A stretch of DNA of 64,000 bases from Ancylobacter novellus DSM 506 (GTDB lineage Bacteria > Pseudomonadota > Alphaproteobacteria > Rhizobiales > Xanthobacteraceae). Position numbers and translations under genes: made by a program. This document shows positions 27,624-38,112 of this stretch, one piece after another (position 1 is the first letter of the stretch; the number at the start of each line of letters is the position of its first letter). The notes below the pieces were generated by a model, which made no database searches, was not told the origin of the DNA, and was given only the letters and a program-made list of their open reading frames with translations. The stretch lies in contig NC_014217.1 of the NCBI RefSeq assembly GCF_000092925.1, forward strand, positions 2,480,001-2,544,000. The letters are read 5' to 3'.

Positions 27624-27749
27624 ATGAACACGCTTTTCTCCGAGATCGTCGACGCGCATGGCGGCATGGACCGCTGGAATGGCTTCATCCGCAAAACCCG
27701 ATTGCCGAACATGAGAGAGACATGTAATATGTCAGATGTCGGTAGTTGA
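27624..27749 (+). pseudogene. Truncated gene fragment (N-terminus only)
   Basis: An ATG at 27624 opens with MNTLFSEIVDAHGGMDRWNG. It reads like the intact N-terminus of a larger family beginning EI-DAHGG-DRWN, as I recall from rhizobial proteins. After about residue 23 the frame changes character (basic and cysteine-containing, then stop at 27749), and it runs into the operator-like GACAT-N5-ATGTC. I read this as the stump left by a deletion or insertion whose junction is near 27690. The missing part is not in the window. Confidence 0.5.
27719..27735. promoter_or_regulatory. Candidate GntR operator, site 1
   Basis: GACAT-GTAAT-ATGTC (27719-27733) is a perfect inverted repeat. Its right side with two more bases reads CTGACATAT on the minus strand, the same nine bases found at sites 2 and 3. 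It lies 27 bases before the DUF6166 start, at the head of the operon that encodes the GntR protein. Confidence 0.55.
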
Positions 27750-27761
27750 TGGATGAAGATC

Positions 27762-28058
27762 ATGAAGACATATCGTGGGGACAGGACCATCGATGGCGTG
27801 GCGGTGACGGTGGACGGTGCGCCGCTGCCGGAGCGCACCGACATCAAGGAGATCAGCCGCGACGGATTCGAGTGGAGCTACGAGGGCGTCGCCCCGGCCC
27901 AACTCGCCCTGGCGATCCTTGCCGATCATTTCGGCTCCGCCGCGCTTGCCCTGCAGAACTACGACCGCTTCATGCGCGATGTGGTCGCCAATTTCGGCAA
28001 TGAGTGGGAATTCACCACGGCCGATATCGAGGCCGTCCTTACCGCCCGCGCGGCCTGA
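27762..28058 (+). CDS. DUF6166 family protein
   Basis: The 98-residue product reads MKTYRGDRTIDGVAVTVDG, then DIKEISRDGFEWSYEGVAPA, QLALAILADHFGSAALALQN and a C-terminal EFTTADIEAVL. I recognise this as DUF6166, a small cytoplasmic family of unknown function. The ATG at 27762 matches the conserved start; another ATG lies at 27753. It is nine bases ahead of the hydrolase gene and just behind operator site 1, so it leads the hydrolase-GntR operon. Confidence 0.85.
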   Translation: MKTYRGDRTIDGVAVTVDGAPLPERTDIKEISRDGFEWSYEGVAPAQLALAILADHFGSAALALQNYDRFMRDVVANFGNEWEFTTADIEAVLTARAA

Positions 28059-28067
28059 GCCTTCTCC

Positions 28068-28850
28068 ATGGCGTCGTTCGTCTCGCAGTTCGTCGCGGCG
28101 CCTGCCGGCGCGGTGGAGTGCTTCGTCGCCCATGGTCAGGCGGATCCCGCCAATGGTTCCTTCGTGCTGGTCCACGGCATTCAGGGAACGGCGGCCGCGT
28201 GGGCGGGGATCGCGCCGCGACTCGATAGCGGGCGCGCCGTTCTCATGCCAAACCTGCGCGGACGCGGGCGTTCGCCAAGCCCGGACGATACCGCCGCCTA
28301 TACCCTCGGTCATTTCGCCGATGACCTTGCCGCGGTGATCGCCTCCGCCCCGGGCCCGGTGACGCTGGTCGGCTGGAGCATGGGCGTGCTGGTGACGCTG
28401 ACCTACATCGCGCGCTTCGGCTCGGCGAAGCTTGACGGGCTGTTATTGGCCAGCGGCACCGCGCATCCCGGCAACGAGGCGGTGTGGTTTCATGCCGAGA
28501 CGACCGAAGGCGTCGCGCAGGAGGCGCGCGCGCGGGCGGCCCGGCTCGGCCTCACCGCCTATGCCACGTCAACCGCCGTTGCCGGCGCCTGGGCCTCGGT
28601 ACGCGCAGCGGATCTGCGTCCCGTGCTCACGCAGATCGAGCTGCCTACTCGAGTGCTGCACTGCGAACTGGACGACCAGTGCCCGCTCGATCATGGCCGG
28701 CTCATCGCCGCCAGTATCCCAAATGCGTCGCTGGAGGTCTGGCCGGGCGCCGGCCACAATCTCATGGCTGAGGATCCCGCCCGTTTCGCGCAGAGCGTGT
28801 TGCGCCTTTATGCCGCCGCGCGCTCTGATAGGCTGAAGACGACTCAGTGA
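28068..28850 (+). CDS. Alpha/beta-hydrolase fold enzyme
   Basis: The 260-residue hydrolase has an oxyanion turn SFVLVHGIQGTAAAW and the nucleophile elbow GWSMG with Ser104. The acid is probably in HCELDDQCPLDHGR and the catalytic His230 is in WPGAGHNLMAEDP. PNLRGRGRSPSPDD also fits esterases and enol-lactonases of the 3-oxoadipate enol-lactonase group. It is soluble (no signal peptide). Lying between DUF6166 and the GntR gene, it is probably a catabolic step for the substrate sensed by that regulator. Confidence 0.92.
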   Translation: MASFVSQFVAAPAGAVECFVAHGQADPANGSFVLVHGIQGTAAAWAGIAPRLDSGRAVLMPNLRGRGRSPSPDDTAAYTLGHFADDLAAVIASAPGPVTLVGWSMGVLVTLTYIARFGSAKLDGLLLASGTAHPGNEAVWFHAETTEGVAQEARARAARLGLTAYATSTAVAGAWASVRAADLRPVLTQIELPTRVLHCELDDQCPLDHGRLIAASIPNASLEVWPGAGHNLMAEDPARFAQSVLRLYAAARSDRLKTTQ

Positions 28851-28914
28851 TATCTCAGCATCGGCCACACCTTCCGCCGGCTTCCCCGGCGGCCCGTTGC
28901 ACCCGGAGTTCCCC

Positions 28915-29655
28915 ATGCCGCCAGCAGGCACCAAGCGCGCCCCCAATGTGCGCAAGACCGACGGTCGGAAGACCGGCGGCGGGCGCGGCCGGCGTAACGA
29001 GGCGAGTCTCGAGGCCGAGGATCTCACGCTCACCGACCGCGCCTATCGCCAGCTCGAGGAGCTGATCTCGACGCTCCAGCTTCCGCCCGGCACGGTGCTG
29101 TCCGAGCTGACCTTGGCGCAGCGGCTGAATATCGGCCGCACCCCGATCCGCGAGGCGCTGCAGCGGCTCGCCCGCGATGGGCTGGTGGTGGTGCTGCCCC
29201 GCCGCGGCGTGCTGGTCTCCGAGATCAATCTGCGCACCCAGCTTCGCCTGCTGGAGACCCGCCGCGTGCTGGAGCGGCTGATGGCCGAACTCGCCGCCGA
29301 ACGCGCCAGCGACGAGGAATGCGAGCAGTTCGCTCAGATCGCCAAGGGCATGCAGGATGCCGCCGCGCGCTCGGATGGCATCGAGTTCATGCGGCTTGAC
29401 CGCACGCTGAACACGCTGGTCTCCGATGCCGCGCGCAACGAATTCGCCAGCCGCTCCATGGGGCTGATGCACGCGCTCTCCCGCCGCTTCTGGTACCAGC
29501 ACTACAAGCGCGTGGCGGACCTGCCGCTGGCCGCGCAGCTCCACGCCGAACTCGCCGCCGCGATTGCGGAACGTGACGGCGAGAAAGCCGCCGCCGCCTC
29601 CGACAAGCTGATCGACTACATCGAATCCTTCGCCCGCAAGACGCTGGACGATTGA
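28915..29655 (+). CDS. GntR family (FCD/FadR-type) transcriptional regulator
   Basis: The 246-residue regulator has an extended basic N-terminus and a winged HTH: TDRAYRQLEELISTLQLPPG, LSELTLAQRLNIGRTPIREA and LQRLARDGLVVVLPRRGVLV. An all-helical effector domain of FCD type follows (TRRVLERLMAELAAERASDE; HAELAAAIAERDGEKAAAAS). The ATG at 28915 has GGAG six bases upstream. It is convergent with livF. I propose that it controls its own operon and the neighbouring liv, ABM, alcohol dehydrogenase and hydroxylase genes through the CTGACATAT sites. Confidence 0.93.
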   Translation: MPPAGTKRAPNVRKTDGRKTGGGRGRRNEASLEAEDLTLTDRAYRQLEELISTLQLPPGTVLSELTLAQRLNIGRTPIREALQRLARDGLVVVLPRRGVLVSEINLRTQLRLLETRRVLERLMAELAAERASDEECEQFAQIAKGMQDAAARSDGIEFMRLDRTLNTLVSDAARNEFASRSMGLMHALSRRFWYQHYKRVADLPLAAQLHAELAAAIAERDGEKAAAASDKLIDYIESFARKTLDD

Positions 29656-29668
29656 AGATACAAGAATT

Positions 29669-29691
29669 GAGCACGCGCCTTACGCGTGCTC
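29669..29691. terminator. Hairpin between convergent GntR and livF genes
   Basis: GAGCACGCG-CCTTA-CGCGTGCTC forms a 9-bp stem that includes the livF stop codon. Neither strand has a proper T-run, so it may be a weak two-way terminator. Confidence 0.4.
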
Positions 29692-30402
29692 CATCTCCAC
29701 TTCGCCGGCGATGACGCGCATCACCGCGCGGTCGGCATGGGCCTGCGCCAGCGTACCCTCGAAGATCATCTCGCCACGCTCGACCACATAGAGCCGGTCG
29801 ACATAATCCGGCAGGTGATGGACGTTGGACTCGGCCATCAGCACCGCCTCGCCCATGGCGCGGATCGAGGCAATGCCCTCCGAGATCATCGGGATGATCG
29901 CCGGCGACAGCCCCTCGAACGGCTCGTCGAGCAGGAGGAGGCTCGGGTCCAGCGCCAGCGCGCGGGCGACGGAGACCATCTTGCGCTCGCCGCCGGAGAG
30001 CTGCTGGCCGCCGCGCGCCAGATATTGCCGCAGCTTGGGGAACACCTTCAGCGAACGCTCCACCCGCTCCTCCTCCGAGAGAGGAGAAGGTCGGGTCCAT
30101 GTCGGCAGCGCGATGTTCTCTGCGACGGTGAGATCGGCATAGACGTCGGATTCCTCCGGCGAATAGCCGATGCCGAGCTGCGCGATCTTGTAAGTGGGCA
30201 TCCCGACGAGGTCCTGCCCCTTGAAGCTGATCGCGCCGGCGACCGGCGCGCGATGACCCATGATGGTGCGGAAGGTCGTGGTCTTGCCGGCGCCGTTGCG
30301 CCCGATCAGGCAGACCAGCTCGCCCGGCTCCACCGTGAGGTCGAGGCCGTTGAGGATGCGGCTGCCGGCAATATCGACCTTGAGGCCGGAGATCTTCAGC
30401 AT
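29680..30402 (-). CDS. livF: LIV-type ABC transporter ATP-binding protein
   Basis: The 240-residue ATPase matches LivF: Walker A CLIGRNGAGKTTTFRTIMG near residue 35, GIGYSPEESDVYADLTVAEN with the Q/E-loop, the signature LSGGERKMVSVARAL, Walker B LLLLDEPFEGLSPAI and the C-terminal ERGEMIFEGT. The start at 30402 has GGAGCCTCC upstream. It is the last gene of the liv set (binding protein, two permeases, two ATPases, all minus strand and tightly packed). Members of this family import branched-chain amino acids, amides, urea or aromatic acids. Confidence 0.94.
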   Translation of the reverse strand: MLKISGLKVDIAGSRILNGLDLTVEPGELVCLIGRNGAGKTTTFRTIMGHRAPVAGAISFKGQDLVGMPTYKIAQLGIGYSPEESDVYADLTVAENIALPTWTRPSPLSEEERVERSLKVFPKLRQYLARGGQQLSGGERKMVSVARALALDPSLLLLDEPFEGLSPAIIPMISEGIASIRAMGEAVLMAESNVHHLPDYVDRLYVVERGEMIFEGTLAQAHADRAVMRVIAGEVEMEHA

Positions 30403-30412
30403 AGGAGGCTCC

Positions 30413-31228
30413 TCAATGACTGGTCGCGGAAGCGAAGCTGGCAGCCGCATTCGAGGCCTTGTGCTTCATCTGCGGCGGGCGGGTGCCGACCACCGCGGCG
30501 ATCAGCGCCGGATCCTTGAAGAAGGTTTCCGGCTTCTCATTGGCCAGCACACGCCCGGCCTGAAGCGCGACGATGCGGTCGGAGTAGCGGGCGACGAGAT
30601 CCATGTCGTGCTCGACCTGGATGATCGCCCGTACCCCCGCCTTGCGGCAGGCGGCGATCAAGAGCTCCATGATGGCGTGCTTGTCGCCGGTGGAGACCCC
30701 GGAGGTCGGCTCGTCGATCAGGATCAGCTCCGGCTTCAGCGCGAAGGCGCTGGCGACATCGAGCAGCTTCTTCTCGCCCTGAGAGAGGGCGCGGGCGCGC
30801 TGGTCGAGCCGGTGGCGCAGGTTGAAGATATCCGCCACCTCCTCCACGGCATCATGCACCTCGCGGTCGCGGATCAGGCTGCGCAGCGGATTGATGGTGC
30901 GTTTCAGCCGCGAGGAGGCGGCGACGCACAGCGTCTCGCGCACGGTGAGCTCGGGGAAGATGTTCACCAGTTGAAAGCCGCGCGCCATGCCGCGCCGCGC
31001 CAGTTCCACCGGGCCGATGCCGCCAATGTCGCTGCCGCGGAAAGAAACCTGTCCCGAGGTCGGCTTGAGCAGGCCGGTGAGCACATTCACCAGCGTGCTC
31101 TTGCCCGCGCCATTCGGCCCGACGATGGAGATGAACTCGCCGTCATTGATCGAGATCGAGACATCGGTCAGGGCGTGGAAATCGCCGTAGCTCTTGCAGA
31201 CGGTGTTGGCTTCGAGAAGCGCCGTCAT
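30413..31228 (-). CDS. livG: LIV-type ABC transporter ATP-binding protein
   Basis: The 271-residue ATPase matches LivG: SIVGPNGAGKSTLVNVLTGL near residue 35, GMARGFQLVNIFPELTVRET, the signature ALSQGEKKLLDVASAFAL, Walker B LILIDEPTSGVSTGDKH and the H-loop in VEHDMDLVARYSDRIVAL. The signature LSQGEKK is a variant of LSGGQ shared by a subgroup of LivG proteins. Three bases separate it from livM and ten from livF. Confidence 0.94.
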   Translation of the reverse strand: MTALLEANTVCKSYGDFHALTDVSISINDGEFISIVGPNGAGKSTLVNVLTGLLKPTSGQVSFRGSDIGGIGPVELARRGMARGFQLVNIFPELTVRETLCVAASSRLKRTINPLRSLIRDREVHDAVEEVADIFNLRHRLDQRARALSQGEKKLLDVASAFALKPELILIDEPTSGVSTGDKHAIMELLIAACRKAGVRAIIQVEHDMDLVARYSDRIVALQAGRVLANEKPETFFKDPALIAAVVGTRPPQMKHKASNAAASFASATSH

Positions 31229-31231
31229 GGT

Positions 31232-32248
31232 TCAGCTCCCGCGCTTGAAGCGGTGGAGGAGGCTTCCCGCGATGCCGGACAGGCCGCCGGGGAAGAACAC
31301 GACAAGAAGGATCAGCACCGCGCCCATCACGAAACGCCAGTACTGGGTGATCGACATCACCGTGTCCTGCAGCAGGACGAAGGCGAGCGAGCCGACCACC
31401 GGACCGATGAAGGCCCCGGAACCGCCGAGCACCGCCATGAAGACGAGGTTGCCGGACTGGGTCCAGTAGACGATCTCCGGATCCGCAAGGCCGATGGTGA
31501 TGGCGAGGATCGCTCCGCCAATGGCGCCGTAAAGGCCTGAGATGACATAGGCGGCGAGGCGCATGCGGGTGACCTGGACACCGAGATAGGCCGCCTTCTG
31601 CGCGTTCTCGCGGATCGCCTGGAGATGCAGGCCGAAGGGCGAGCGCACGATGCGCCACATGATGAGGCCGAGAGCCCCGAGCAGGCCGAGGGCGTAATAG
31701 TAGAACGGCCCGGTAAGGAAGGCGGTCTTGCCGCCCTCGAACTCCATGCCGAACAGCAGCGGGCGCAGCACCCGCATGCCCTGGTCGCCGCCGGTGAGGC
31801 CGTAGAACTTGTACAGCACCGAGTGGAACAGCATGCCGAAAGCCAGCGTCAGCATGCCGAAGAAGATGCGGGTGTAGCGCACGCACAGGAAGCCGACCGG
31901 GATGGCGATGATCACCGAGACGAGGATCGAGACCAGCAGGATCAGCTCGAAGGACTGCACGCCGAGCTTCGAGGTCATCACCGCCGCGGTATAGGCGCCG
32001 ATGCCCAGGAACATGGCGTGGCCGAAGGAGAGCAGTCCGGTGTAGCCGAACAACAGGTTGAAGCCGAGCAAGGCGATGGCGAGCGCGAAGAATGGCACCA
32101 TCAGGGTCAGCGTGTAGGTGGAGGCGAAGAACGGCAGGGCCGCCATCGCCGCGAGGATCACCAGGAGAGCCCAGAGGCCGGAGGCCCTCGTCGCTTTCGA
32201 AGGCGAGCGCGCCAACCGCGTGCTCTCGACGATATGGGGAGCACTCAT
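31232..32248 (-). CDS. livM: LIV-type ABC transporter permease
   Basis: This 338-residue inner-membrane permease has about nine to ten hydrophobic segments. LivM landmarks are NLLFGYTGLLSFGHAMFLGI near residue 65, SPFGLHLQAIRENAQKAAYL, AYVISGLYGAIGGAILAI and VFMAVLGGSGAFIGPVVGSL. Its start overlaps the livH stop by four bases. The product should pair with LivH to form the channel. Confidence 0.94.
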   Translation of the reverse strand: MSAPHIVESTRLARSPSKATRASGLWALLVILAAMAALPFFASTYTLTLMVPFFALAIALLGFNLLFGYTGLLSFGHAMFLGIGAYTAAVMTSKLGVQSFELILLVSILVSVIIAIPVGFLCVRYTRIFFGMLTLAFGMLFHSVLYKFYGLTGGDQGMRVLRPLLFGMEFEGGKTAFLTGPFYYYALGLLGALGLIMWRIVRSPFGLHLQAIRENAQKAAYLGVQVTRMRLAAYVISGLYGAIGGAILAITIGLADPEIVYWTQSGNLVFMAVLGGSGAFIGPVVGSLAFVLLQDTVMSITQYWRFVMGAVLILLVVFFPGGLSGIAGSLLHRFKRGS

Positions 32249-33126
32249 GCCATCGCCTTTCCGAACAGGCCGGCCGGGCGCAGGATCAGCACCGCGATGA
32301 CGACCACGTAGATCGAGAGGATTTCCGCCTCCGGCAGCACCATGATCGCGACGGCGCGGATCAGGCCGACGATCAGCGCGCCGGCCATCGCCCCGCGCAT
32401 AGAGCCGAGCCCGCCGATGACCACCACGGCGAAGGCCTCGACCACGAGTTCGACCGACATTTCCAGCGAGGCGGCCGAGGCCGGCACCACCAGCGCGCCG
32501 CCCACCGTGCCGAGCATGCAGCCCACCGTGAACACCGCCGCGAAGATGCGCTTGGAGTTGACGCCGAGGCCCTCCGACATTTCGCGGTTCTCGGCCGTGG
32601 CGCGGATGATGCGCCCGGTGCGGGTGCGCTGGAGGAACCAGCCCAGCCCGCCGGCAATGGCGATCGAGGCGGCGATGACCAGGAGATTATAGGTCGGCAC
32701 CCGGATGCCCGCGATCTCGGCGGTGCCATAGGCGAGATAGGCGTTGTCCAGCGTGAGCGGCGTCGGCCCCCACAGGAACCGCATCATGTCCTGGAACACC
32801 AGCAGCAGGCCGAAGGTCAGCAGCAGCTGGTGGCTCTCGTCGCGCTCGTAGACGGTGCGCAGCAGCCGCTCGACCGGCAGGCCGATCAGCCCGATGGCAA
32901 GACCGGCGAGGATCAGCACCGGCAGCACGACGATACCGGGAAGCCCCATCGCCGCGGCCGCCGCGACGGCGGTGATGCCGAAATAGGCCCCGAGCGCGTA
33001 GAACGAGCCGCAGGCGAGGTTGACGATCTTCTGCACGCCGAACACCAGCTGGAGGCCGGCAGCGACGAGGAAGACCACGGCGGCGTGGAAAACGCCGCCG
33101 AGGATCATGTCGATAAGGATTGCCAT
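32245..33126 (-). CDS. livH: LIV-type ABC transporter permease
   Basis: The 293-residue permease has eight or so membrane segments and LivH landmarks: VFGVQKIVNLACGSFYALGA, FLQRTRTGRIIRATAENREM, GCMLGTVGGALVVPASAASL, and VEAFAVVVIGGLGSMRGAMA near the C-terminus. It begins nine bases after the binding-protein gene ends. Gene order K-H-M-G-F is the classic one. Confidence 0.94.
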   Translation of the reverse strand: MAILIDMILGGVFHAAVVFLVAAGLQLVFGVQKIVNLACGSFYALGAYFGITAVAAAAAMGLPGIVVLPVLILAGLAIGLIGLPVERLLRTVYERDESHQLLLTFGLLLVFQDMMRFLWGPTPLTLDNAYLAYGTAEIAGIRVPTYNLLVIAASIAIAGGLGWFLQRTRTGRIIRATAENREMSEGLGVNSKRIFAAVFTVGCMLGTVGGALVVPASAASLEMSVELVVEAFAVVVIGGLGSMRGAMAGALIVGLIRAVAIMVLPEAEILSIYVVVIAVLILRPAGLFGKAMA

Positions 33127-33135
33127 GTCGCTCCC

Positions 33136-34410
33136 TCAGGCCGGCAGCTTGGCGGTCTTGAGCCACTCCCAGAAGTCCATTCCCGGCGGCTTCTGGAGCT
33201 GGTCGGCGGTGTAGGCGTTCACGGTCTTCAGCGTCGGGAAGTCGTAATTGTTCTCGTTGGTCGACAGGCCCTGATAGAACACCTGCTCGGCGATCTTGTC
33301 GGCGCGGAAGCGCCCCGGTCCGCCGAGGCTATGCACTTCCTGTTTCGGGATTGAATCGATGATCTCGTCGAGCTTCGGCCAGCGGCCCGTCGCCTTGGCC
33401 GCCGCCTCGGTGCCGGCCTTGTAGGCGGCGAGCGCGAAATAGGCGCGGTCGGCCTCCCAGTGCGGGGCCTCCTTGTAGCGGTCCATATAGTCCGCGACGA
33501 AGGCCTTCTGCAGCGGCGAGGCGTCGGGCAGCGCGAAATAGAGCGTGTTGTGCCCGAAGATAATGTTCTCCGGCATGAAGCTCTTCTTGAGCTGGTTGAG
33601 CTGCCAGCCGGCGGCGGGAAGCGCGAGGTTCACGCCCTCGAACAGCCCGGCGGCGCTGCCCTGCTTCATGAACACCGGCAGATCGGCGAACAGCATGGAC
33701 GAGAAGATGAAGTCGGGCTTGGCCGCCTTCAGCGCCGCGATGTGCGAGGTGAGGTCCATGGTGCCGACCTTGGGCCACTGCTCGGCCACCACCTCGTATT
33801 GCACGCCCGCGCGGGTGAGGATCTGCCGGAACGCCTCCCAGTTGTTGCGCCCGTAGGAGTAGTCGGGATTGATGCCGGCGACACGCTTGATCTTGTTGCC
33901 GAAATACTTGACCGACAGCAGCGAGGACATGACCGCCTCGCACTCATTGTCGGTGGAGCGGAACACGTAGCGCGCCTTGGGCATCGCCTCCTTCACGCCG
34001 TCCTGGGTGGTTCCGTCCCACATGATGAGCAGCGCCTGCTCTTCCTCGGCGACCGGGGCGACGCCCATGGAAACGCCGGTGGAGATCAGGCCCTGCACGC
34101 AGTCCACCTTCTCCTGAAGCACCAGGCGGCGGAAGCGCTCGATCGTGTCCTTCGGGGAAGTCTCCTCCTCGAAGACCAGCTCGACCGGGCGGCCGGCGAT
34201 GCCGCCGTCCTTGTTCATGCGCTCGGCGGCCCACTGCACCGCGCGGATGCCGCATTCGCCGACCGTACCCATGGCGCCGGAGCGCGGGGCGAGAATGCCG
34301 ATGCGGACAGGTTTGGATTGGGCGATAGCCGGAGCGAAGACACCCGGCACGGAAGCGGCAAGACCGGCAGCACCGATCCCCCGCAGCACGGAGCGGCGGT
34401 TGAGATTCAT
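33136..34410 (-). CDS. LIV-type ABC transporter substrate-binding protein with Tat-like signal
   Basis: The 424-residue periplasmic protein begins MNLNRRSVLRGIGAAGLAAS, a twin-arginine-like signal with cleavage near APAIAQS. The binding fold follows: PVRIGILAPRSGAMGTVGEC, NKDGGIAGRPVELVFEEETS and PKDTIERFRRLVLQEKVDCV. This fold is larger than typical LivK (about 370) and resembles amide/aromatic-type receptors. It leads the liv operon, and operator site 2 lies 41 bases before its start. The neighbouring alcohol dehydrogenase and hydrolase argue for an organic substrate other than an amino acid. Confidence 0.92.
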   Translation of the reverse strand: MNLNRRSVLRGIGAAGLAASVPGVFAPAIAQSKPVRIGILAPRSGAMGTVGECGIRAVQWAAERMNKDGGIAGRPVELVFEEETSPKDTIERFRRLVLQEKVDCVQGLISTGVSMGVAPVAEEEQALLIMWDGTTQDGVKEAMPKARYVFRSTDNECEAVMSSLLSVKYFGNKIKRVAGINPDYSYGRNNWEAFRQILTRAGVQYEVVAEQWPKVGTMDLTSHIAALKAAKPDFIFSSMLFADLPVFMKQGSAAGLFEGVNLALPAAGWQLNQLKKSFMPENIIFGHNTLYFALPDASPLQKAFVADYMDRYKEAPHWEADRAYFALAAYKAGTEAAAKATGRWPKLDEIIDSIPKQEVHSLGGPGRFRADKIAEQVFYQGLSTNENNYDFPTLKTVNAYTADQLQKPPGMDFWEWLKTAKLPA

Positions 34411-34450
34411 TGATTTCCTCCCCTCGCGGGTCTTATGCCCGCCGTAGGTC

Positions 34451-34470
34451 CTGACATATCATAAATATGC
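34451..34470. promoter_or_regulatory. Candidate GntR operator, site 2 (liv operon)
   Basis: CTGACATAT (34451-34459) starts an imperfect dyad: CTG-A-CATAT, spacer CATAA, ATATG-CAG. It sits 41 bases before the binding-protein start, on the opposite strand from that gene, where repressor binding would block transcription. Confidence 0.5.
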
Positions 34471-34616
34471 AGACTGAATGTCTGGCAAGGAATAATTTTG
34501 ACTTAGATCAATTTGTGATCGCTCGACGACGCCTGCGTTCGCTCGCAAAGCGATGCTGCGCCTGGGTTTTGCGACGCCGACGGGTGAACCCGGCTACCGC
34601 GTCGGAAACAATCGAA

Positions 34617-34640
34617 CTGACATATCTTCAGGATATTTCA
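34617..34640. promoter_or_regulatory. Candidate GntR operator, site 3 (ABM gene)
   Basis: TGACATATC (34618-34626), spacer TTCAG, GATATTTCA (34632-34640) is an inverted repeat with one mismatch; with the preceding C it contains CTGACATAT. It is 94 bases before the ABM gene. The remaining divergent gap (34411-34733) shows no open gene. Confidence 0.5.
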
Positions 34641-34733
34641 CGCCGCCGGAGCTTTACACGACGCCCGGCGCGGCAGCAGGATGACCGGCAATACCAACCG
34701 CGAAAGCGAGAAATGAGGGAAGGGAGCCCCGCC

Positions 34734-35096
34734 ATGATCGCCGTGATTTTCGAGGTCTGGCCCGCCGAGGGCGAGCGCCAGCACTATCTCGACATCGCCG
34801 CCGCGCTGCGCGCCGACCTCGCCGAGGTCGACGGCTTCATCTCGGTCGAGCGCTTCCAGAGCCTCACCGACCCGGAAAAGATGCTCTCGCTGTCGATCTG
34901 GCGCGACGAGGAAGCGGTCCGCCAATGGCGCAACCGCGCCAATCACCGAAAGGCGCAGGCCGAGGGGCGCCACGGCGTGTTCCGCGACTACCGGCTGCGC
35001 ATTGCCGAGGTGTCGCGCGACTACGGCCTGAGCGACCGCGCGCAGGCGCCGAACGACAGCCGGCAGGCCCATGCACCCGTGAGCATCGCTATATAG
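34734..35096 (+). CDS. Antibiotic biosynthesis monooxygenase (ABM) domain protein
   Basis: The 120-residue product has the ABM ferredoxin-like fold pattern: MIAVIFEVWPAEGERQHYLD, ALRADLAEVDGFISVERFQS, PEKMLSLSIWRDEEAVRQWR, NRANHRKAQAEGRHGVFRDY and RLRIAEVSRDYGL. Such cofactor-free proteins act on quinones, aldehydes or other reactive intermediates, or as heme-degrading relatives. GGGAG lies eight bases before the ATG at 34734. It is divergent from the liv operon and convergent with the alcohol dehydrogenase. Confidence 0.9.
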   Translation: MIAVIFEVWPAEGERQHYLDIAAALRADLAEVDGFISVERFQSLTDPEKMLSLSIWRDEEAVRQWRNRANHRKAQAEGRHGVFRDYRLRIAEVSRDYGLSDRAQAPNDSRQAHAPVSIAI

Positions 35097-35100
35097 CCGG

Positions 35101-36213
35101 CTAATCGAACATGATGACGCTGCGGATCGCCTCGCCGCGCTTCAACGCGGCGAAGCCGTCATTGATCTCGTCGAGCGCGATGCGGGCGGTGATGAGTTCG
35201 TCAAGCTTCAGCCGCCCGTCGAGATAGCCCTTTGCCAACAGCGGGAAATCCCGTTCCGGTCGTGCGCCGCCATAGGAGGAGCGGCGGATGCGCTTCTCGC
35301 CCATCAGCGAGCCCCAGCGGAAGGCGACGTCCTTCGCCACATCGATCTTGCCGAGCCAGATCACCTCGCCGCCGGGCCGCACCGCCTCGGCACTGGTGCG
35401 GAAAGCGGCGGGACTTCCCGCCGATTCCAGCACCACATCGGCGCCGCGCCCCTTCGTGGCCGCCCGCGCGACGTCCGTCGCGTCTCCGCGGGTGGCATTG
35501 ACCAGCCGGGTTGCGCCCATGACGGCGGCAAGGTCGAGCTTGTCGTCGCTGAGGTCGACCGCGATGATCTCGCCGGCGCCGGCCAGCCGCGCGCCCTGCA
35601 CCGCCGCCAGCCCTACCGCGCCGCAGCCCAGCACCATCACGGTGTCGCCGGGTGATATCGAGGCGATGTTCATCGCCGCCCCTGCCCCGGTCATCACCCC
35701 GCAGCCGATCAGACAGGCGCGATCGAACGGGATCTCGCGCGGCACCGGAATCGCCTGCTGGTCCGGCACGATGCAGTACTCGCCGAAGGCGCCGAGGAAC
35801 ATCAGTTGGCGCAGTTCGCGGCCGTCGGCGAGCCTTGCCCGCGGCGCGCCGTCGAAGGCCAGCGCCTTCGGCCCCTCGCTGAGATAGCCCTCGCACAGGA
35901 TCGGCAGCGAGCGGTCGCAGTAGAAGCAGCCGCCGCAATGCGGGTTCCAGGACAGCACCACATGGTCGCCCGGCTTCACCCCGCGCGCGTCCGGCCCGAC
36001 CTCCTCTACGATGCCTGCCGCCTCATGGCCGAGCACGATCGGCATGGGGTAGCGCAGACCGCCCTCGATCACCTCGAGATCGGTGTGGCACAGCCCCGCC
36101 GCTTTGATGCGCACCAGCACGTCGGAGGCGCGAAGCGGTTCGGCGATCACGGTCTCGATGGTGAGCGGCGCGTGCGCCTCGTGCAGCACCGCGGCCCGGT
36201 AGCTCAGGCTCAT
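35101..36213 (-). CDS. Zinc-dependent alcohol dehydrogenase (class III/aryl-alcohol type)
   Basis: The 370-residue enzyme has catalytic zinc ligands C42 (GLCHTD) and H63 (GHEAAG) and four structural-zinc cysteines C93, C96, C99 and C107 (HCGGCFYC, then ILC). GCGVMTGAGAAMNIASISPG precedes the NAD-binding GCGAVGLAAVQGARLAGAGE. This layout is that of glutathione-dependent formaldehyde and aryl-alcohol dehydrogenases. The lower conservation around the substrate loop argues against FrmA itself. GGGAGAG lies upstream of the ATG at 36213. Operator site 4 is in its promoter gap. Confidence 0.93.
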   Translation of the reverse strand: MSLSYRAAVLHEAHAPLTIETVIAEPLRASDVLVRIKAAGLCHTDLEVIEGGLRYPMPIVLGHEAAGIVEEVGPDARGVKPGDHVVLSWNPHCGGCFYCDRSLPILCEGYLSEGPKALAFDGAPRARLADGRELRQLMFLGAFGEYCIVPDQQAIPVPREIPFDRACLIGCGVMTGAGAAMNIASISPGDTVMVLGCGAVGLAAVQGARLAGAGEIIAVDLSDDKLDLAAVMGATRLVNATRGDATDVARAATKGRGADVVLESAGSPAAFRTSAEAVRPGGEVIWLGKIDVAKDVAFRWGSLMGEKRIRRSSYGGARPERDFPLLAKGYLDGRLKLDELITARIALDEINDGFAALKRGEAIRSVIMFD

Positions 36214-36327
36214 CTTTCTCTCCCGGAAGCGTGTTCTCCAGCGCCGCGGGACGGCGCCGCGATGGCGCAACCGACCGGAACACTGCCATTTTCCCGATCT
36301 TCAGGGGCGGGCGATCAAGCGGCTTGC

Positions 36328-36356
36328 CATCTAATGTAACACTGATATGTTAGATG
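36328..36356. promoter_or_regulatory. Candidate GntR operator, site 4
   Basis: CATCTAA (36328-36334) and TTAGATG (36350-36356) are perfect arms of a 29-bp imperfect dyad. Its right part reads CTAACATAT on the minus strand, one base different from the CTGACATAT of sites 1-3. It lies between the alcohol dehydrogenase (115 bases to the start) and the hydroxylase gene (84 bases). Confidence 0.5.
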
Positions 36357-36439
36357 CATTCTTGTCGTAGGGCAACAGCGCGGATAGCGCGCGGCCCAGA
36401 CGCTCACGCCTTCAGAAAATGCCCGCCAAGGAGGACGAC

Positions 36440-37249
36440 ATGGAACTCGCCGTCAGCTCGATGACCGAGCGCCAGAGGAAATACCGCGCCACCTACCGCG
36501 AGCGCGTCGCCGGCTGGTACAATGGCTGGCTGCACATCGCGGTGATCTACACGATCGGCTTCACCGCCCTTTACGTGTACGTCTCGAACATCGCGAATGT
36601 GGCGTGGTGGGAGTGGCTCACCGTCCCGGTGGTGTTCCTGTTCTGCAATTTCTTTGAATGGGCGCTGCACCGCTACGTGATGCACCGGCCCTCGCGCATC
36701 CCGCTGCTGCGCGCGGTCTATAACCGCCACACGCTGATGCACCATCAGTTCTTCACCGAGGAGGAGATGCGCTTCGCCGATCATCACGACTGGCGCGTCA
36801 CCTTCTTCCCGCCCTATGCGCTGGTGACCTTCACGCTGATGTCGATCCCCGGCGCCGTGGTGCTGTCCTGGCTGGTCTCGCCCAATGTCGGCTGGCTGTT
36901 CATCACCACCACGACCTCGGTGTACCTGCTCTACGAGTTCATGCACTTCACCACGCATATCGACGAGAACTGGTTCGTGCGGAACATGCCGTTCATCAAC
37001 ACGAACCGGCGCCACCATGCCGCGCACCACAACCAGTCGATCATGATGGAGAGGAACATGAACCTCACCTTCCCGATCATGGACTGGGCGTTCGGCACCT
37101 CGGATCTCGATCGCGGCTTCCTCGGCCATCTCTTCAACGGCTACGACACCCGCTACATCAAGCGGGACATGCGCAAGACCTCGCGCACGCCGCGGCCCGC
37201 CGGAGCCGATGCCGCAGCCGGTTCCATGACCCGGCAGCCCGCCGAATAG
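36440..37249 (+). CDS. Fatty acid hydroxylase/sterol desaturase family membrane enzyme
   Basis: The 269-residue di-iron membrane enzyme has about four membrane segments and the histidine clusters of the family: EWALHRYVMH, NRHTLMHHQFF, ADHHDWRVTF, FMHFTTHIDENW and RRHHAAHHNQSIMM. It would hydroxylate or desaturate a lipid-like or terpenoid C-H bond using oxygen. AGGAGG is six bases before the ATG at 36440. It heads a plus-strand group with two small membrane proteins and ends in a terminator. Whether it shares the substrate of the neighbouring liv system is unknown. Confidence 0.92.
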   Translation: MELAVSSMTERQRKYRATYRERVAGWYNGWLHIAVIYTIGFTALYVYVSNIANVAWWEWLTVPVVFLFCNFFEWALHRYVMHRPSRIPLLRAVYNRHTLMHHQFFTEEEMRFADHHDWRVTFFPPYALVTFTLMSIPGAVVLSWLVSPNVGWLFITTTTSVYLLYEFMHFTTHIDENWFVRNMPFINTNRRHHAAHHNQSIMMERNMNLTFPIMDWAFGTSDLDRGFLGHLFNGYDTRYIKRDMRKTSRTPRPAGADAAAGSMTRQPAE

Positions 37250-37287
37250 CGCGCGGCCTTCCTGCTCACAGCCTCAAGGAGACCGTC

Positions 37288-37683
37288 ATGGCCGCACTCG
37301 AGCCGAACGTGATCGCGCTTGCCTGGTTCGCCCTGTTCTCGACGCTGTGCTGCGTCGGCTTCCTCATCCTCTCGGGCTCGTTCCCGCTCAGCGCCGCGAA
37401 GGAGCGCGGGCAGGCCTCCAGTCCCGCCCTCGCGCTCCTCAACGGCGCGCTGATGCTGGTGCTGGTGGGGTTCACCCTCGCCTTCGGCCTGATCGAGCTG
37501 CGCGTCACCAGCGTCATCGTGGTGGCGGGCCTCGCCTTCCTGTTCGCGCCGGCCTCGTTCGAGATCTGGCCGGAGCGCTGGAAGGATGGCCGCGCCGTCC
37601 TCGCCATCATGGCGCTCGCCCAGATGGGCGCCCTTGCCGCGCTCTACCAGGTCGGCGGCGAAGTTCTCGCGCCCCTGGTGTGA
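37288..37683 (+). CDS. Small four-helix membrane protein, unknown function
   Basis: The 131-residue product has four hydrophobic helices: VIALAWFALFSTLCCVGFLIL, ALLNGALMLVLVGFTLAFGL, VTSVIVVAGLAFLFAPASF and [29 protein letters not shown] precedes the ATG. It follows the hydroxylase by 38 bases and is likely in the same transcript, so it may be a partner subunit or redox anchor; no cofactor motif is visible. I do not recognise a family. Confidence 0.75.
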   Translation: MAALEPNVIALAWFALFSTLCCVGFLILSGSFPLSAAKERGQASSPALALLNGALMLVLVGFTLAFGLIELRVTSVIVVAGLAFLFAPASFEIWPERWKDGRAVLAIMALAQMGALAALYQVGGEVLAPLV

Positions 37684-37745
37684 ACACGGGAGAGGAAACG
37701 CCATGAACCAACACCACCCGTCACGCCCGGAAAACGGAGCCAGCC

Positions 37746-37928
37746 ATGCCCACAATTGTGAAGCTCACCATCTCGCTGATCGTGATCCTTGTCGCGGCTG
37801 CGGGCTATGCCCTGCAGGCGCATCTCGGTCAGGTCGGCCCGAAATACGCGGTGCTGTTCCTCGGAGCCTTCATGGTGATCGCCATGTGGCTGTTCCCGGA
37901 GGTCAGCCGTAAGGAGATCCGCAAATAG
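37746..37928 (+). CDS. Single-/two-helix 60-residue membrane protein
   Basis: The product has two hydrophobic stretches (VKLTISLIVILVAAAGYAL; YAVLFLGAFMVIAMWLF) and a basic tail RKEIRK. CGGAG is seven bases upstream of the ATG. It is the third gene after the hydroxylase and ends 36 bases before a good terminator. Its function is unknown. An overlapping short frame from an ATG at 37702, which has an even stronger GGAGAGG upstream, is noted under findings. Confidence 0.6.
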   Translation: MPTIVKLTISLIVILVAAAGYALQAHLGQVGPKYAVLFLGAFMVIAMWLFPEVSRKEIRK

Positions 37929-37964
37929 CGCAACGCCGCTGACACCGCCTTCCAGACGCAATAG

Positions 37965-37995
37965 CCCGGCCCGATCCACAGGCCGGGTTTCTTTT
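37965..37995 (+). terminator. Rho-independent terminator of the hydroxylase operon
   Basis: CCCGGCC (37965-37971), loop CGATCCACA, GGCCGGG (37981-37987), then TTTCTTTT. It closes the three-gene group. Confidence 0.85.
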
Positions 37996-38112
37996 GTGAG
38001 ACTCCGGTGGCAGCGGCGGTTTTGATGAAAGTCGGAACGACGTCTTCACCGCTAGCTGGCGATAACCAGCTCGGTTCCGGCGGCGACCAGTGCCTTCAAC
38101 ACCCGAAGACGT

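Follow-up and report, generated by a model that had tools for sequence, protein, structure and literature searches.

Which regulator governs the uptake and enzyme genes gathered around an FCD-type GntR gene in Ancylobacter novellus DSM 506, through which DNA sites, and for what kind of substrate? The genes lie in a stretch of 64,000 nucleotides (contig NC_014217.1, positions 2,480,001 to 2,544,000), which was analysed as a whole and is called here the window; coordinates are those of the window unless a locus handle precedes them. A preliminary description of this DNA had noted a nine-base string, CTGACATAT, in several gaps of the cluster, and had proposed from it a GntR-controlled regulon that responds to an alcohol, ester or aldehyde-forming compound. 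One GntR-linked regulon is retained here, with sites at orthologous genes and genome-wide matches only in this cluster, whereas the proposed inducer is not. The FCD-type GntR protein (28915..29655, plus strand) is probably a local repressor dedicated to one conserved module for uptake and hydroxylation, acting via the palindrome CTGAYATATCAG. Computation shows the motif, where it lies and how far it is conserved, its association with the GntR clade, the co-occurrence of the genes and the gene swaps among lineages.

The nine-base string was found at 27727-27735 (minus strand), 34451-34459 (plus strand) and 34617-34625 (plus strand), and its one-base variant CTAACATAT at 36345-36353 (minus strand), as had been reported. 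All four fall between assigned genes and precede, in order, the DUF6166-hydrolase-GntR genes, the gene of the liv binding protein, the ABM gene, and the divergent pair encoding an alcohol dehydrogenase (ADH) and a hydroxylase. Each had been described as part of an inverted repeat of varying quality; all of these repeats can be described by a single 12-bp palindrome, CTGAYATATCAG, with ATAT at its centre, and an additional half-site. The string CTGACATAT is the local version of this palindrome, and the half-site is a second YAYATCA box, often present about 11 bp downstream. Taken alone, the number of one-mismatch matches to the nine-base string in the whole window is unremarkable (6 against 3.43 expected, a count reached by 13 of 100 shuffles). 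The 4.77-Mb genome has 8 exact copies of the string, against 3 of the reversed control, and three of the eight copies lie within 6.9 kb (Poisson P 2.6e-7, for a span chosen post hoc). Because this statistic is post hoc, the test was shifted to other genomes, and conservation there is regarded as the deciding evidence for the motif.

Loci for this comparison were gathered by protein homology and never by motif. They comprise 67 named loci found by GntR, 14 segments of related genomes that surround GntR or hydroxylase matches, and the window slice, making 82 loci with a total length of 1.47 Mb. Hyphomicrobiales, Rhodospirillales and other groups are represented, and many of the loci are close relatives rather than independent draws. 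The pattern CTRAYATATYA has 94 matches in these loci. Of these, 91 lie no more than 300 bp upstream of a cluster gene, in regions that add up to 70 kb, and 68 of the 82 loci have such an upstream site. By comparison, 100 column-permuted control patterns gave a mean of 0.11 upstream matches and a maximum of 3. Gene by gene, sites were counted with the wider pattern YTRAYATATYA within 300 bp upstream, excluding genes that start fewer than 150 bases from a contig end. By this count a site precedes the hydroxylase gene in 63 of 73 cases, the gene of the periplasmic substrate-binding protein (SBP) in 19 of 20, and the genes of the MFS, ABM and PhyH families in 22 of 36, 5 of 11 and 1 of 8, respectively. 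None was found upstream of the hydrolase (8 genes), M131 (53), LivF, LivG, LivM and LivH (21 each) or DctM (7). That the sites recur before the orthologs of these genes elsewhere, a point which the preliminary description had left to be checked, is thus seen both in this count and in the footprints of the window and four close relatives.

In those five sequences the four intergenic regions have mostly diverged, and the sites stand out. Predicted operator 4 (36330..36358, minus strand), between the divergent ADH and hydroxylase genes, lies in a 40-column block of which 36 columns are invariant in the window and the four relatives. Predicted operator 1 (27713..27742, minus strand; core CTGACATATTAC at 27724-27735), upstream of the DUF6166-hydrolase-GntR operon, is recognisable in all four aligned relatives, with a changed core in one of them (L032). 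Within predicted operator 2 (34451..34468, plus strand; 11.3 bits in a scan of the window), upstream of the SBP-liv operon, CTGACATATCATAAATATGCA is invariant across the window and the four relatives. The weakest of the four is predicted operator 3 (34614..34628, plus strand), a degenerate site upstream of the ABM gene (7.2 bits, E 0.39, scan of the window only), which has drifted yet is recognisable at the same place in three of the four relatives. A candidate operator 5 (28844..28860, minus strand; core CTGAGATATCAC at 28847-28858), absent from the preliminary description, lies just upstream of gntR and overlaps the stop codon of the hydrolase gene (about 5 bits, E 1.9-2.6, scan of the window only). 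Its GTGATATC is invariant in the window and the four relatives, part of it possibly conserved as coding sequence, and it suggests a separate autoregulation of gntR inside the operon.

Within a single genome, the 12-mer CTGAYATATCAG with up to two mismatches does not discriminate (85 forward and 94 reverse matches genome-wide, against 84 and 89 for the reversed control), and a profile was therefore used, built from 56 sites with the window's genus left out. At E<=10, the whole-genome search with this profile gave two matches only, both in the cluster: operator 4 as the top match (16.6 bits) and operator 1 (13.6 bits). The search uses a first-look filter that leaves weak sites elsewhere possible, and the 34451 site itself is not among its matches. 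The flood of random occurrences that would have spoken against a regulon was not seen. The exact string has five copies outside the cluster, all treated as chance, two of them inside open reading frames (ORFs) and one in a stretch without a clear gene. Of the other two, one, read as CTGACATATCTG, stands 12 bp before the ORF of a LysE-family transporter (L145:1256-1264), and one, read as CTGACATAT, precedes a GntR/UTRA (HutC-type) gene by some 100 bp (L147:1317-1325).

The GntR protein contains an N-terminal winged helix-turn-helix (wHTH) domain (PF00392, 63.2 bits) and a C-terminal FCD domain (PF07729, 75.1 bits), both above cut-off, the domain composition of the FCD subfamily. Its gene and that of the hydroxylase occur together. 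Among 151 relatives, the hydroxylase (E<=1e-20) was found in 18, and 17 of these have the GntR ortholog (at least 57% identity); the remaining one, G076, is a genome 79% complete. Within the genus, both genes are present in 8 of 30 genomes and, by these cut-offs, only one of them in none, although there are further genomes with GntR matches of 29-49%. Across 385 genomes of the class, the hydroxylase was found in 16, GntR (E<=1e-40) in 28 and both in 13, so that GntR accompanies 13 of 16 hydroxylase-bearing genomes versus 15 of 369 without hydroxylase. The palindrome also lies upstream of the own gntR gene in three loci (L023, L024 and L026; 40-46% identity) from genomes with no hydroxylase match, and, as TTGATATATCAA, upstream of the own gene of L017 (48% identity, again no hydroxylase match). 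The predicted operator type belongs, on this evidence, to a wider GntR clade. Metal-binding FCD domains have as ligands D-x3-H plus two further histidines. In sequence comparison, the GntR orthologs have D-x3-N instead of D-x3-H (Asn in 75 of 75, Asp in 74, a later His in 74).

The operon behind operator 1 encodes a DUF6166 protein (27762..28058, plus strand, start possibly at 27753; PF19663, 110.8 bits), an alpha/beta hydrolase (28068..28850, plus strand; PF12697/PF00561) and GntR. Behind operator 2, on the minus strand, are the genes of a periplasmic SBP of the HAAT/LIV family (33136..34410; PF13458, 199.8 bits), LivH-type (32245..33126) and LivM-type (31232..32248) permeases, both PF02653, and LivG-type (30413..31228) and LivF-type (29680..30405) ATPases, both PF00005. 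With its SBP, two BPD_transp_2 permeases and two ATPases in one operon, this system is a LIV (HAAT) ABC transporter. The ABM-family protein (34734..35096, plus strand; PF03992, 66.7 bits) is followed by the zinc ADH (35101..36210, minus strand; PF08240/PF00107), which is class III/NDMA-ADH-like and matches TIGR03989 with 308.4 bits, below the cut-off of 440. The hydroxylase is a membrane enzyme of the FA_hydroxylase superfamily (sterol desaturase family; 36440..37249, plus strand; PF04116, 34.4 bits, cut-off 31). After it comes M131 (37288..37683, plus strand), a 131-residue protein that is hydrophobic by eye and gave no family match in profile scans; 45 of 67 loci have it as a conserved neighbour of the hydroxylase.

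In other lineages the usual core consists of GntR, DUF6166 and the membrane di-iron-type hydroxylase: among 73 hydroxylase loci, GntR and DUF6166 are each present in 71. DUF6166 was found in 52 of 67 loci by clustering and in 71 of 82 by tblastn. Its AlphaFold model (pLDDT 89.5) has no PDB/Foldseek match at E<=0.001, its best sequence match, MukF (E 0.018), is not meaningful, and it is named in no paper of the open-access literature searched. The importer, found in 60 of the 73 loci, is of LIV, MFS or TRAP type and has changed at least 6 times along the hydroxylase tree. The ADH is present in 36 of them, a PanB paralog in 28, neither in 9 and both in none. The hydrolase (8 of 82 loci) and the ABM protein (11 of 82) are accessory. 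An alcohol, ester or aldehyde-forming inducer is therefore unsupported: the hydrolase is rare, 28 of the 73 hydroxylase loci have the PanB paralog and no ADH, and the commonest parts are instead GntR, hydroxylase and DUF6166, with the importer.

The importers point elsewhere. The nearest solved relative of the SBP is 3i45, with 4ey3 and 4evq lower in the match list; all three presumably bind aromatic acids such as nicotinate, vanillate or hydroxybenzoate, and in its nearest matches the local SBP resembles the HAAT/LIV transporters of aromatic acids. The MFS importer of related loci is aromatic-acid/H+ symporter-like (TIGR00895, 279.7 bits, cut-off 418.55). These importer families suggest that the substrate is an organic, perhaps aromatic, acid.

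From these observations we infer binding, repression, inducer, substrate and reaction order as follows. A GntR dimer, probably joined by further subunits at the half-site 11 bp away, would bind the palindrome before the operon that encodes it, before the transporter genes and between the divergent genes of ADH and hydroxylase, with weaker binding before the ABM gene, and would keep the module off when no substrate is present. The imported compound or its first product would bind the FCD domain, the repressor would leave, and the transporter and membrane hydroxylase would be made. The hydroxylase would most likely act on a small organic acid, perhaps an aromatic one, and turn a C-H, plausibly of a methyl group, into an alcohol; the resulting carbon would then be oxidised by the zinc ADH in this organism, or removed by the PanB paralog in other lineages. 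In its most specific form, this scheme would be an undescribed, widespread pathway of Alphaproteobacteria, under an off-consensus FCD-GntR operator, in which a membrane di-iron hydroxylase makes a hydroxymethyl group on a small acid after its import, perhaps an aromatic or heteroaromatic one. Either a zinc ADH would then oxidise that group, or a PanB paralog, repurposed and with its metal site rebuilt, would release it as a one-carbon unit. That form is offered tentatively and with low confidence.

The hydroxylase itself has invariant histidines in the alignment, and its family profile, histidine motifs and fold are those of the FA_hydroxylase superfamily. Its model (mean pLDDT 69.7, middling) matches the hydroxylase domain of Scs7p (Foldseek probability 1.00, E 0.008-0.02, TM about 0.40), and there is a weak NCBIfam match to the TrhA companion domain (46 bits, cut-off 200). 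Named relatives, among the 120 of 2389 listed, are called hypothetical protein, sterol desaturase or fatty acid hydroxylase. Such a kinship with fatty-acid and sphingolipid hydroxylases, together with the 13 of 73 hydroxylase loci in which no importer was seen within the stretches examined, would fit a real regulon whose product is a modified membrane lipid or envelope compound, the transporter supplying a precursor and no catabolism taking place. This is unlikely: a LIV, MFS or TRAP importer accompanies the hydroxylase in the other 60 loci, and an ADH or PanB paralog in 64 of 73. Unlike the superfamily that it resembles in motifs and fold, the local enzyme is linked to small-solute importers and a GntR regulator.

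The PanB paralog, a protein of related loci and not of the window, matches ketopantoate hydroxymethyltransferase (PanB or KPHMT) over its whole length (321.8 bits to Pfam, and above the TIGR00222 equivalog cut-off). It differs in two residues and in being a second copy beside canonical panB in all six tested paralog genomes, although in G031 the paralog is only a fragment and in one genome it lies off the contig of the cluster; a single panB was counted in each of G015, G053, G074 and the genome of the window. In 28 of 28 full-length paralogs (L050:5158-6057 and 27 others), Cys (GCMPYQSY) stands where ten canonical copies have Asp (DLP/DMP; D(L/M)PFGS), and Gln (KPQGG) where they have Glu (K.EGG). 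The canonical Asp and Glu are taken to be metal-site residues, and the full-length paralogs lack both. The mutual exclusion of ADH and PanB paralog is suggestive, and it is weak evidence because two changes suffice to explain it on the hydroxylase tree, which was built quickly and leaves 28 of its 70 inner branches unresolved. A Fisher value for the exclusion was set aside on the same ground. Clustering of ORFs gave 28 ADH and 23 PanB loci of 67; the figures used here are those of tblastn over the 82 loci. A gene of the ketopantoate-reductase family (ApbA) flanks the cluster in 8 Bradyrhizobium loci (e.g. L042:4889-5950; one of the 8 genes was scanned for this assignment) and may be a mere neighbour.

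According to the accessible part of PMC10127515, Escherichia coli KPHMT adds 2-oxo acids to formaldehyde, and EDTA was added against retro-aldolysis. A one-carbon-removing role of the paralog is chemically possible because of this formaldehyde chemistry; the accessible part of PMC7073904 has no bearing on it. The same chemistry would suit a module that handles (keto)pantoate-like or branched 2-oxo acids, the ADH oxidising and the PanB paralog removing a hydroxymethyl group. The absence of any locus with both enzymes, the retention of canonical panB and the flanking ApbA gene agree with such substrates, but the swap amounts to only two tree changes, both canonical PanB residues are altered in every full-length paralog, and ApbA is limited to 8 of 67 loci; 2-oxo acids are thus a quite doubtful choice.

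How does the predicted operator compare with those of known GntR regulons? The accessible part of Suvorova et al. (2015; PMC4494728) describes FadR/FCD regulons to which the present one is similar in combining a wHTH-FCD regulator with local control of a transporter and enzymes, and in adding to the palindrome a further half-site, which in those regulons lies 7-12 nt from the centre. It differs in its operator, TGAYATATCA: the typical boxes of the FadR subfamily are TKGT/ACMA, with exceptions such as NanR and BioR (PMC4494728, same part), and the consensus CTGAYATATCAG is without them.

This departure from the consensus weighs against the proposed repressor, as do several other observations. 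The palindrome was not found in 9 of 12 more distant GntR relatives (L019-L030), and 15 genomes of the class have GntR (E<=1e-40) without the hydroxylase and 3 the hydroxylase without GntR. By the per-gene count, a site lies within 300 bp upstream of gntR in only 10 of 78 cases, of DUF6166 in 7 of 71, of the ADH in 8 of 35, of the PanB paralog in 4 of 31 and of DctP in 0 of 7. Ten of the 82 loci have no site by the pattern YTRAYATATYA; four of these are contigs under 7 kb, and two others, L057 and L063, have the hydroxylase on longer stretches. Further points against the proposal are the 13 importer-less loci and the window cluster itself, where neither a ring-cleavage gene nor any other gene of a lower pathway was seen.

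The off-consensus operator and the nine palindrome-free relatives would also be expected if another regulator acted on the cluster through the palindrome, GntR being a bystander or partner. This is improbable: GntR is the sole regulator among the 12 protein families that occur in at least 10 of 67 loci (rarer neighbours being incompletely scanned), the genomes of L023, L024 and L026 have the same palindrome before gntR with no hydroxylase match, and the motif is nearly confined to cluster promoters in the collected loci. Although TTGACATAT variants look like a -35 box, it is highly improbable that a conserved core-promoter element (TTGACA-like) or AT-rich sequence, and not an operator, accounts for the motif, as the perfect palindrome CTGATATATCAG is seen at many sites, followed 11 bp further by a half-site, and outside cluster promoters the 1.47 Mb hold only 3 of the 94 matches.

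The search of one open-access library found no account of the module among the papers listed (titles and the starts of abstracts). The motif strings occurred in none of its texts together with GntR, and of the texts listed as holding such a string none looked related by its title; RegPrecise was not searched. Within that scope, the GntR-linked regulon is real, conserved and apparently undescribed, although of a known kind. What was a string match in one genome becomes a regulon with defined candidate operators, common to Ancylobacter, Xanthobacter, Bradyrhizobium, Afipia, Methylobacterium and Rhodospirillales. DUF6166, the sterol-desaturase-like enzyme and the PanB paralog, none of which has an assigned role here, are thereby tied to one substrate, and the identification of one ligand, of the binding protein or of the repressor, could reveal the pathway in all these genera.

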